Positions 12,035-19,874 of a stretch of DNA of 64,000 nt are shown here, in pieces. Position 1 is the first letter of the stretch; each line of letters opens with the position of its first letter. The DNA is from Peribacillus simplex (GTDB taxonomy: Bacteria; Bacillota; Bacilli; Bacillales; DSM-1321): assembly GCF_900156045.1 (NCBI RefSeq), contig NZ_FTMX01000002.1:434001-498000 (forward strand), written 5' to 3'. A model generated the notes under the pieces. The model saw only the letters and a list, made by a program, of their open reading frames with translations, was not told the origin of the DNA and made no database searches. The position numbers and the translations under genes were made by a program.

Positions 12035-12703
12035 CTATTGAAGGTGACCTTCCATTGCGTGTTTATTTCTAAGTTCTAATAAACTCTCCAATTTTCTCTT
12101 CACTCTCTGCAACGCATTATCTATAGACTTTGCGTGAGTATTTAATTTATCAGATATTTCTATATAAGTAAGGTCCTCTAAGTAAAAAGCCAAAACCTTC
12201 TTTTCTAACGGACTTAGAACCTCAGATAATTTTAATTCCAAGTCATCAGCAGATTCTTTATCTATCAATATCGCAACGGGATCAGAAATAACGGTGTCTG
12301 TCATTACTTCCATAAGAGTATGATCCGGATTTTCTTCATATATAGGCATATCAAGCGAAATAGAAGAATTTAACGGAGTATGTTTTTGACGAGTAGCTGC
12401 CTTGATGGCTGTAATAATCTGTCTGGTGATACATAGTTCTGCAAACGCTTTAAAATAAGATTGTTTCTCGCCATTAAAATCCCTGATGGCTTTAAACAAT
12501 CCTATCATCCCCTCTTGGATAATATCTTCTCTATCTGCCCCAATTAAGAAGTATCTGTTAGCCTTAATCTTTACAAAAGATTGATATTTCTTCATCAGAA
12601 CTTCTAGTGCCTCCATATTTCCTTGCCGGACCTTTTCTATTAATACTCCATCTTCAAAATTAGCACATAGGAATGACGGTTTTTCTTCGATAGCTATACT
12701 CAC
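12035..12703 (-). CDS. RNA polymerase sigma factor, SigH paralogue
   Basis: The 222-residue protein follows SigH (Spo0H) closely. Region 2 has YFLIGADREDIIQEGMIGLF, then AFAELCITRQIITAIKAATR. Region 4 has LEKKVLAFYLEDLTYIEISD and KSIDNALQRVKRKLE. SigH drives early sporulation and competence genes. The normal sigH lies next to rpmG/secE, so this copy, inside a tRNA-flanked island, is probably an extra one. A longer frame reaches 12760, but GTG at 12703 follows GGAGGG by five bases and gives the SigH length. The linker between regions 2 and 4 is divergent (TDTVISDPVAILIDKESADD). It may recognise other promoters. Confidence 0.88.
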   Translation of the reverse strand: MSIAIEEKPSFLCANFEDGVLIEKVRQGNMEALEVLMKKYQSFVKIKANRYFLIGADREDIIQEGMIGLFKAIRDFNGEKQSYFKAFAELCITRQIITAIKAATRQKHTPLNSSISLDMPIYEENPDHTLMEVMTDTVISDPVAILIDKESADDLELKLSEVLSPLEKKVLAFYLEDLTYIEISDKLNTHAKSIDNALQRVKRKLESLLELRNKHAMEGHLQ

Positions 12704-12882
12704 AAAAATCCCTCCACCGGCTGCATTCAGTTGAGCCTTGTTGTTTAAACGGACGCCCATTTTATATGCGATAAATTACGATATTATTTAATAATAACCT
12801 ATAGCACTCACCGATGATATTAGATTATTTCGACAATTAACTACATTCCAATACACCTTTTTTTAGTTAGAAGGCACCGTTT

Positions 12883-13447: not shown

Positions 13448-13519
13448 TGACCTGTGAGGGATTCGAACCCACGACCCCTTCCCTGTCAAGGAAGTGCTCT
13501 CCCACTGAGCTAACAAGTC
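13448..13519 (-). tRNA. tRNA-Val (anticodon GAC)
   Basis: The gene folds into a full cloverleaf. The acceptor stem is GACTTGT/ACAGGTC with two G-T pairs. The D arm is GCTC/GAGC. The anticodon stem CTTCC/GGAAG encloses TTGACAG, and the T loop is TTCGAAT. One T-T mismatch lies in the T stem. CCA is not encoded; the discriminator is A. The gene's 3' half is duplicated at 11732 and, shortened, at 4961, so it appears to be a preferred integration site. Confidence 0.92.
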
Positions 13520-14103: not shown

Positions 14104-15285
14104 TTACATTGGAGAGGGGAATCTAGCAGCTTGAAAGTTAGTTAAAGGTGCATCTGCTAAAATCTCTCCATTTACACCTGCGCTAAATATTACTTGTACC
14201 CGATCTCCTGCTTTTAACTGAAGGATTGTAGTTACCGATAGTCCAATAGGTCTTGATTTTCCAAAGAAGTCATTAACAGTATCTAAATCATCTCCGTTGA
14301 CGTTAATTGAAATGGATGCGGCAAATCCTTCTTTTGAAGAATGCCTTTTTTTCTCTTTTGAAGAATGACTTTTTTTGCAATAATCACAATTGCAACTATT
14401 TCTTTTGCAATAATCACATTTGCAATTATCTTTTTGGGTTTTTGGGGAATTATCTCTTTTTCTTTTTGACGGACAAAATGAGACTTTTGCTGTTATCTCA
14501 TAAATTCCATTCTCAGTTGGAATAAATGTTGATATATGCGGATTATATTCATTCGCTAAATCAAATTGTTCAGTTTGGTATAAAACTTTTACAGAGGGCG
14601 TAACCGCTGCTTTGTAAAGTTGTGGTGTGTTCTTATTAGCCCTAAACGCAGATGCCCTCACTAGATTATGTTTCTTATTATCACAGTGACAGTCATTATG
14701 TTTCTTCTGGCACAAATGACAGACATCGGTTTTCTTTTGATCACATATACAGTCATTGTGCTTCTTATGGCAGCAATGACATGGATCGCATATACAGTCA
14801 TTGTGTGTCTTATGACAACAATGACAATCATCCGGTTTCTTTTGATCACATATACAGTCACTGTGCTTCTTATGACAACAATGGCAATCATCCGGTTTCT
14901 TTTGAATACAAATACAATCATTGTGCTTTTTATGACAACAATGGCAATCATCCGGTTTCTTTTGGATACAAATACAGTCATTGTGTTTCTTGTGACAAGA
15001 ATGACAATCGTCCGGTTTCCTTTGAATGCAAATACAGTCATTGTGCTTCTTATGACAAGAATGACAATCATCCGGTTTCTTTTGAATACAAATACAGTCA
15101 TTGTGTTTCTTGTGACAAGAATGACAGTCATCCGGTTTCTTTTGAATACAAATACAGTCATTGTGTTTCTTGTGACAAGAATGACAGTCATCCGGTTTCT
15201 TTAGAATACATTTCTTATTAAGATATGTGGTGTCTACAAAGGAATTACAATGTGAAATAGGAAAATGATATTTAATTATAATCAC
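14104..15285 (-). CDS. Cys/His-rich tandem-repeat protein with C-terminal jelly-roll-like domain (probable spore surface)
   Basis: The 393-residue protein has a short N-terminal part (residues 1-28). About nine tandem units of a 20-residue motif follow, typified by KKPDDCHSCHKKHNDCICIQ (residues about 29-205, later units divergent). The C-terminal domain (about 210-393) resembles the TNF/C1q-like domains of BclA-type exosporium proteins: LYQTEQFDLANEY, NGIYEITAKVSF, SISINVNGDD, LSVTTILQLKAGDRVQVIFS. A second Cys/Lys-rich insert (CKCDYCKRNSCNCDYCKK) interrupts it. Collagen-like repeats are replaced by Cys/His units able to bind metal or cross-link. The start is unsettled: GTG at 15285 overlaps AAAGGTG, and ATT a few codons later is possible. 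Confidence 0.8.
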   Translation of the reverse strand: MIIIKYHFPISHCNSFVDTTYLNKKCILKKPDDCHSCHKKHNDCICIQKKPDDCHSCHKKHNDCICIQKKPDDCHSCHKKHNDCICIQRKPDDCHSCHKKHNDCICIQKKPDDCHCCHKKHNDCICIQKKPDDCHCCHKKHSDCICDQKKPDDCHCCHKTHNDCICDPCHCCHKKHNDCICDQKKTDVCHLCQKKHNDCHCDNKKHNLVRASAFRANKNTPQLYKAAVTPSVKVLYQTEQFDLANEYNPHISTFIPTENGIYEITAKVSFCPSKRKRDNSPKTQKDNCKCDYCKRNSCNCDYCKKSHSSKEKKRHSSKEGFAASISINVNGDDLDTVNDFFGKSRPIGLSVTTILQLKAGDRVQVIFSAGVNGEILADAPLTNFQAARFPSPM

Positions 15286-15338
15286 CTTTTTCTTTTTTAT
15301 TTTCTGGTTATTTTATTCATTAAAAGAAAAGGTGTTTG

Positions 15339-15347
15339 TACAATATG
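15339..15347 (-). promoter_or_regulatory. Possible SigK/SigE -10 element
   Basis: CATATTGTA on the minus strand fits CATAnnnTA of mother-cell sigma factors. It lies about 54 bases before the Cys-rich gene. No clear -35 AC was seen at the usual distance. Confidence 0.35.
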
Positions 15348-15522
15348 GTACAAAAGTAAAAATAAATCAAACTCAAACAGCAAAAATCCACTGGTTTATA
15401 TACCGTTCTTAAGAAGGTTGATTGTTAACAAACAGGGATGAAGTTATATTAGCAAATTAACTTCTTAACTTTTTTCAAACATCAACTATCAGGTAAGCTA
15501 GTTCATAAAAAAACACTAAAGA

Positions 15523-19385: not shown

Positions 19386-19874
19386 ATGAACCAAAATGTA
19401 TATCGTAGCAATTGTAACACACATGACGATTCTGAAAGATCATGGTCGGCTCTAGATTCCGCTTCCAGACATCCCCTGTCAGGATTCTGTAACGACGATG
19501 ACACAAAGATTAGCCAAGAGGCAAGACAGGATAATAATCAAGTACAGCTTTCTGAAGAACTTATTTACATTAAAGATTCTTGTAATGTAAATATCACTTC
19601 AACGGATGTTAAAGCGGCCCTTTCTCTACAAGCTGCCCTACAAGCTGCTATTGCGGTCATCGTAAGCATTTCCATTGCAGATGCTGATAATGCTGAAAAG
19701 ATCACTCAAGAATTAATCCAATCTTCTAATATTAAACAAATCACGCGCCAAAAAACAATTGTTGAAAACAGCCGTGATATCGACATTACAACAACTGATG
19801 CACAAATCGCTCTAAACATCCAACTATTACTGCAACTATTGTTAGCTCTAATCGTGGAAATTGACATTCTTTAA
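19386..19874 (+). CDS. cotX: Spore coat protein with two CotX domains
   Basis: The 162-residue protein has a variable N-terminal part. Two copies of the CotX/CotV repeat follow (about residues 55-105 and 110-162). Each carries an IKxSxxVNITSTDVKAALSLQ-like strand-helix: DSCNVNITSTDVKAALSLQA and ENSRDIDITTTDAQIALNIQ. Hydrophobic alanine/leucine runs follow each. CotX belongs to the insoluble crust/outer coat fraction of B. subtilis spores, where it interacts with CotY/CotZ. No cotY/cotZ gene lies in the window. A SigK-type promoter and a ggaggaaaaaa leader support expression in the late mother cell. Confidence 0.87.
   Translation: MNQNVYRSNCNTHDDSERSWSALDSASRHPLSGFCNDDDTKISQEARQDNNQVQLSEELIYIKDSCNVNITSTDVKAALSLQAALQAAIAVIVSISIADADNAEKITQELIQSSNIKQITRQKTIVENSRDIDITTTDAQIALNIQLLLQLLLALIVEIDIL

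Follow-up and report, generated by a model that had tools for sequence, protein, structure and literature searches.

The locus and its Cys/His-repeat gene

The window, meaning the whole 64,000-nucleotide stretch analysed here, comes from the 6.08-Mb genome of Peribacillus simplex (assembly GCF_900156045.1, contig NZ_FTMX01000002.1, positions 434,001 to 498,000). Its minus strand carries an open reading frame that encodes tandem Cys/His units joined to a C-terminal domain, referred to below as the Cys/His-C1q gene. The frame coincides exactly with the one given in a first-pass annotation of this DNA, with 393 codons from a GTG, and the encoded 393-aa protein contains 49 Cys and 33 His. The features of the locus are the following.

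13448..13519, minus strand: tRNA-Val bordering the 2.3-kb segment
13528..15841, no strand assigned: 2.3-kb segment of the carriers
14104-15285, minus strand: Cys/His-C1q open reading frame from GTG, 393 codons
14104..15276, minus strand: Cys/His-C1q coding sequence if translation starts at the proposed ATT, 390 aa
14107..14664, minus strand: C1q/TNF-type domain, from sequence profiles
14326..14454, minus strand: Cys-rich insert, containing CKCDYCKRNSCNCDYC, within a single loop of the C1q/TNF-type domain, from alignment A2 and the insert sequences of the alleles
14677..15201, minus strand: nine Cys/His units, consensus KKPDDCHxCHKKHNDCICxQ
15208..15276, minus strand: N-terminal leader (M)KYHFPISHCNSFVDTTYLNKKC, from alignment A5 and a leader search of 36 genomes
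15281..15287, minus strand: Shine-Dalgarno (SD) sequence AGGTGAT, overlapping the GTG and 8 nt before the ATT
15309..15335, minus strand: sigma-K-like promoter candidate AC-N16-AATANNNTA, by eye in nine aligned sequences
15333..15354, minus strand: palindromic upstream element TTTGTACCATATTGTACAAACA, common to a second leader gene
19386..19874, plus strand: CotX-type spore coat protein (Coat_X, E=1.4e-41)

Among ten neighbouring genes scanned against Pfam, matches were found to PgpA, an esterase, 2'-5' RNA ligase, GNAT, Coat_X and UvrD, together with a WYL match below its cut-off; two genes matched no family. We take the locus to be the yjcH-yjcG-yjcF-cotX-yjcD region of Bacillus. On its left side lies a gene for a sigma-70-family factor with regions 2 and 4 (window 12035-12760).

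Whole-protein searches (E <= 0.001) recovered the Cys/His-C1q gene in 8 of 36 Peribacillus genomes, the present one included, and it is thus not essential to Peribacillus spores. Gene order, including the CotX gene about 4 kb away, is the same in the window and the seven other carriers, all of which also align with the window over the flank that holds the tRNA-Val. Seven of the eight alleles are open; that of G008 is frameshifted, and since the same assembly also splits yjcD, yjcG and pgpA, the frameshift suggests an assembly error. In 14 of the 18 non-carriers fetched (out of 28), the site is empty, with 39-44 nt (11 genomes) or 95-122 nt (3 genomes) from the tRNA-Val to the WYL side, a distance of 2,314 nt in the window; L092, L097, L098 and L099 had no right-flank match. 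A FastTree phylogeny of the pgpA-yjcH region from 26 genomes split off the eight carriers together with one genome with an empty site, G021 (support 0.87), the other nodes being weaker, and one gain plus one later loss or replacement is enough to explain the carrier distribution. Taken together, the empty sites and the grouping of the carriers make the gene look like a shallow, recent gain whose unit number is changing fast. A mobile-element origin of the 2.3-kb segment was rejected, as a search of each flank separately returned only short repeats within it.

Cys/His units and the C-terminal domain

The repeat region had been described as about nine units of 20 residues, and nine were counted, one of them 15 aa long and the other eight 20 aa. 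TRF placed a 60-bp array of 7.0 copies at 14792-15210 (91% matches, score 663). Units 1 and 2 have the same DNA, from which units 3 and 4 depart at 4 of 60 bases each; between units 3 and 4 there are 6 differences. The earlier description of the first four units as nearly identical is therefore a fair one. The proposed comparison of repeat number among strains gave 2 to 10 units across the eight carrier genomes: 9 in the present genome (G000), 10 in G020, 2 in G001, 4 in G028, 7 in G016, 7 in G006, 4 in G007 and 7 in G008.

The pattern C-H-x-C-H-K-x-H-x-x-C-x-C is nearly invariant over the 50 units of the eight alleles, a set that includes the G008 units, one of them truncated. Cys9, His7, His13 and Lys11 are kept in all 50, Cys6, Cys16 and Cys18 in 49 (the loss of Cys16 and Cys18 being that of the truncated G008 unit) and His10 in 46; position 8 is free and may be C, S, L or R. 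The codons of the kept residues, Cys16 excepted, vary synonymously, so that it is the residues themselves that are kept. Between units, pS was 0.540 and pN 0.119, a pN/pS of 0.22; the corresponding ratios over seven alleles (without G008) were 0.21 and 0.26 for two parts of the C-terminal domain and 1.14 for leader codons 4-23, which show no purifying selection. All of these ratios are descriptive, as unit pairs and allele pairs are related. The recurrence of the gene in eight of the 36 genomes and the large excess of synonymous over replacement differences argue that the array is not a product of chance. In a search of 397 genomes of the order, the array alone matched three (E <= 1e-6), all of them in its own genus, and no Pfam or NCBIfam model covering the units was matched.

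Sequence profiles support a C1q/TNF-type identity for the C-terminal domain. Against Pfam C1q, the window domain alone scored 18.5 bits (E 0.0024) and the whole protein 15.3 bits, both below the 23.7-bit cut-off. Two family profiles were built, A1 from seven alleles and A2 from 11 rows; the frameshifted G008 allele was excluded from alignments A1 to A5, and the near-identical G020 allele from A2 and A5. All 11 family rows of A2 matched Pfam C1q at E <= 0.1. Compared with PDB sequences, the A2 profile reached E 5.1e-5 with single-domain cerebellin-1 and E 7.8e-17 with a three-domain chain; a profile of the alleles alone reached cerebellin at only E 2.7, so that the fold link needs the wider family. 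A search of the PDB with the full protein gave nothing at E <= 1, and no BxpB chain was among the 29 PDB sequences that the family profile matched. AF2 models, made from three sequences only (alignments A3 and A4: window, L019 and L020), were poor, with a pLDDT of 48 for the domain and 33 for the whole protein. Foldseek returned no hit at E <= 1e-3 for the domain model, nor a C1q chain among the best 50 listed. The C1q/TNF-type identity given at first pass is thus supported by sequence profiles, and the structural side consists of a pLDDT-48 model too poor to test the fold.

Two parts of the earlier description need qualification. "BclA-like" is a loose label, as collagen is missing here and BclA_C was matched by 5 of the 11 family rows (E <= 0.1), the window row matching only C1q. 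The statement that collagen repeats normally hold the place of the units is correct for two of 27 translated relatives: in L043, from another genus, the domain sits on a long (GPT)n stalk, and in L058 there is a short Gly-Pro-rich stretch. It does not apply to the others; among these, L039-L042 have an N-terminus of some 100 residues with many acidic repeats, and in the rest it is shorter. The Cys-rich insert noted inside the domain is real; about 43 aa long, it is missing from five relatives in A2 encoded by other genes and was seen by eye in none of the 27 translated relatives.

The domain itself is distributed more widely. Profile A1 found two relatives with different N-terminal regions, in G028 and G016, and profile A2 matched 53 of the 397 order genomes (E <= 1e-4) in 19 of 135 genera, the own genus included. 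With tblastn, 29 plasmid records matched the domain, 28 from Priestia and one from B. arachidis. Two loci, L100 (P. megaterium 2020WEIHUA_L p3, where the match is split in two pieces) and L101 (P. megaterium Q3 p1), are domain matches with no listed gene beneath them, the plasmid gene table being incomplete. A phage origin of the domain was rejected: searched at E <= 0.1, 50,697 phage records gave no match, and the one PHROG match had an E value of 0.91 over 11 residues.

Leader, upstream region and translation start

The N-terminal leader of the Cys/His-C1q protein, IKYHFPISHCNSFVDTTYLNKKC, recurs in a different, nonrepeat Cys-rich protein of the same genome (L002, G000:C19:231570-231824), which has the leader INPFNPIPHCKPFVDTTYLHNKC and was first met as a weak match (E 0.02). 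Alignment A5 gives the leader pattern IxxxxxIxHCxxFxDTTYLxxKC. A leader profile run against the 36 genomes recovered the eight alleles and L002 at E <= 4.2e-14, the next match having an E value of 0.07. Likeness extends upstream: over the 100 alignment columns before the SD, L002 is 74-79% identical to the eight alleles, compared with 31-34% over the preceding 120 columns. The palindrome TTTGTACYATATTGTACAAACA occurs without mismatch in the genome only at L002 and the Cys/His-C1q gene; three alleles, those of G006, G007 and G008, carry a changed form of it. A third site (G000:C27, 2 mismatches) was discarded, as no leader gene was seen by eye behind it. The motif AC-N16-AATANNNTA can be read by eye in all nine aligned sequences (eight alleles and L002). 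The sigma-K consensus is AC-N16/17-CATANNNTA; the motif found here is short, degenerate and weak when taken alone, and is offered as a promoter candidate through which sigma-K may drive expression. L002 adjoins a multicopper oxidase gene with Pfam Cu-oxidase domains, whose product resembles, at a guess, CotA.

No canonical start that fits an SD was found before the units in any of the eight alleles. SD-matched codons there (at least 5 bases, spacing 3-11) are, in all eight, an ATA at 5 nt and an ATT at 8 nt, with one further SD-matched ATT in L004. Among window frames of at least 170 aa with an SD match of at least 6 bases (n=24), spacing is 6-9 in 18, and a spacing of -1, the value for the Cys/His-C1q gene from its GTG, occurs in one. 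L002 has an ATA 8 nt from its SD. Weak canonical candidates with SD matches of 5-6 bases, namely, a TTG in the last unit and a GTG before the domain in L004, L006 and L020, were rejected because starts within or after the units cannot yield a protein with all units. RNA structure at the start is unremarkable (MFE -8.9 kcal/mol, z -0.86). Translation of the gene probably begins at the ATT, by way of the SD that overlaps the GTG, with the GTG as a possible alternative; the lack of purifying selection on leader codons 4-23 is a counterpoint to the ATT start.

Similar arrangements were observed at other loci. Of 39 loci scanned, 13 have an SD-supported ATG, L064 has a TTG, and several have no SD-supported start; a relative on pBM600 has an ATG. 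By eye, the N-terminal ends can be loosely aligned (MKNYY, MKKYY, MSKHY and MKNHY). An ATA 6-7 nt from an SD, with no canonical start there, was seen in L039-L042 (genus g47, presumed to be Priestia) and in L049-L050 (genus g119, same family), which makes these C1q-type relatives candidates for AUA initiation; an in-frame ATG lacking an SD of that kind also lies upstream in L039-L042. A 2026 study (PMC13009471) describes AUU and AUA starts with extended SD sequences (infC, ccpN and cvfC1) that were mapped in Staphylococcus aureus, some of them also by reporter assay, and reports that the ccpN AUA is conserved in B. subtilis. The likeness to these genes lies in an extended SD followed by AUU or AUA at normal spacing, read in the present case from the DNA alone.

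A proposed role at the spore surface

The Cys/His-C1q protein is, with moderate confidence, a structural component of the spore's outer surface in which a clasped Cys/His stalk of adjustable length would carry a C1q/TNF-type head. The mother cell would produce it at a late stage of sporulation, and its Cys-containing leader would fix it to an inner layer. The tandem units would form the stalk between leader and head, and the domain, with a fold assigned from sequence profiles, may form a trimeric head as that fold implies. With four Cys and two or three His apiece, the units probably hold a metal such as Zn2+ while in the reducing environment of the mother cell; the Cys may later form disulfides between neighbouring chains. 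Collagen repeat number sets the stalk length in BclA, and the observed change from 2 to 10 units would alter the length of the stalk proposed here.

Context is consistent with a location on the spore surface, given cotX 4 kb away and a related Priestia gene, bxpB (BxpB/ExsFA), that is transcribed in sporulation. L043, with the domain on its (GPT)n stalk, and L002, with the shared leader and upstream region beside a multicopper oxidase gene, also speak for the proposed protein. The putative counterpart of bxpB in the searches is BMQ_RS26650 of Priestia megaterium QM B1551 (pBM600), which fits by plasmid, size and TTG start; it has a homologous domain (40% identity) and differs in having neither stalk nor insert. 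The pBM600 study (PMC4674009) gives bxpB a product of about 17 kDa, a TTG start and an RT-PCR signal mainly in mid to late sporulation; it describes only a minor exosporium phenotype for the mutant and a GFP fusion that was not seen on mature spores.

A scaffold made by disulfides only, in which the Cys cross-link an insoluble coat or exosporium lattice and the His are incidental, with no metal, is a possibility to be taken seriously, if a minority one. CotY/ExsY/CotZ (PF10612), CdeC and CsxA are likewise very Cys rich, and the Cys/His-C1q protein shares with them a probable place at the spore surface; Cys-rich proteins are reported to make the basal layers in other spore formers. PF10612 was found in 2 of 36 Peribacillus genomes, neither of them a carrier and neither the present one, so another Cys-rich protein could replace it; of the 14 genomes used as controls, that of B. 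subtilis alone had a match. Rare as PF10612 is in the genus, P. frigoritolerans is reported to have an exosporium. The Cys/His-C1q protein itself matched neither PF10612 nor PF13157 in a Pfam scan at E <= 10, which listed only C1q, and PF10612 proteins are not known to carry a C1q-type head. Against a general scaffold, the gene was not found in 28 of the 36 genomes. The conservation of His bears on the choice: cross-linking needs no His, yet three per unit are kept despite synonymous codon variation, His7 and His13 without exception and His10 nearly so, and for this reason metal binding by the units is favoured over disulfides alone.

If the units do bind metal, they might instead load Zn, Cu or Cd as a store or shield, protecting the spore or supplying the germinating cell. 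The density of ligands in the protein and the multicopper oxidase gene beside L002 are compatible with such a role, which we nevertheless regard as rather unlikely: none of the ten neighbours scanned, two of which lack a family match, belongs to a metal-transport or regulator family, and a store would not need a C1q-type head. It is improbable that the gene is an unexpressed or decaying relic with negligible translation from GTG or ATT. The missing canonical start with a usable SD before the units and the G008 frameshift would fit a relic, but purifying selection on units and domain and the seven open alleles argue against it, and the G008 frameshift has the marks of an assembly error. Least probable is a tip protein of an ENA-type spore pilus. 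For such pili, PMC11952670 describes C1q-domain tip proteins (L-BclA and F-BclA), some with Cys-rich or CC-bearing N-termini, but the S-type ENA family PF13157 (as distinct from the F-ENA subunits, DUF4183) occurs in 7 of the 36 Peribacillus genomes and in only one of the eight carriers, the present one, weakly (E 2e-4).

Among described systems, the structural protein proposed here is closest in layout to the BclA-type nap proteins (PF18573; Priestia BclA1/BclA2; F-BclA and L-BclA), which have an N-terminal region, a variable repetitive stalk and a C1q/TNF-type head. Their stalk is Gly-X-Y, whereas all eight alleles here have Cys/His units; the present head also has a Cys-rich insert, and the window domain has no BclA_C match. 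By eye, the leader also seems unrelated to that of BclA and to the exosporium leader motif of the B. cereus group. Both C1q/TNF-headed and Cys-rich spore proteins are already known; no precedent for a C1q/TNF head joined to a Cys/His tandem stalk was found in the open-access literature searched.

A wider reading, put forward tentatively and more likely wrong than right, is that Peribacillus swapped the collagen stalk of a C1q-headed spore fibre for metal-clasped Cys/His modules, their number tuned by repeat expansion, in a lineage mostly without the CotY/ExsY scaffold. With the second leader protein, the Cys/His-C1q protein would then make up a small coregulated set that starts at AUU or AUA via an extended SD. 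Were a C1q head indeed carried on a Cys/His stalk, it would follow that spore fibres can exchange their stalk module for one of different chemistry, which would be useful for metal-binding spores. Should the start codon pattern be real, spore-surface genes would join the few genes known to start at AUU or AUA.

Tandem Cys-rich units are also found in other Peribacillus proteins, the HDDCC-repeat proteins, which have 14-15-aa units of another sequence; no established name for them was met in the literature searched. In one of these, L032 of G016, about eleven full HHDDCCKKKKRCDYD units lead into a Gln-rich stretch and then the same type of C1q domain; L032 also differs in having an ATG with its own SD. 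The L032 array matched 4 of the 397 order genomes, three of them in the own genus; the fourth match (G268) is weak, with 16 stops inside. In the present genome, L113 (G000:C9:122915-123304) runs from an HDDCC array into a Gln-rich stretch and stops short of any C1q-type domain, and L116 (G000:C23:138111-138839) has an HDDCC array in a 278-codon frame without one. With PF10612 in only 2 of 36 genomes, the Cys/His-C1q and HDDCC-repeat proteins are concrete candidates for builders of the spore surface. Further HDDCC-type Cys-repeat loci are present in G016 (L115) and G001 (L112 and L117).
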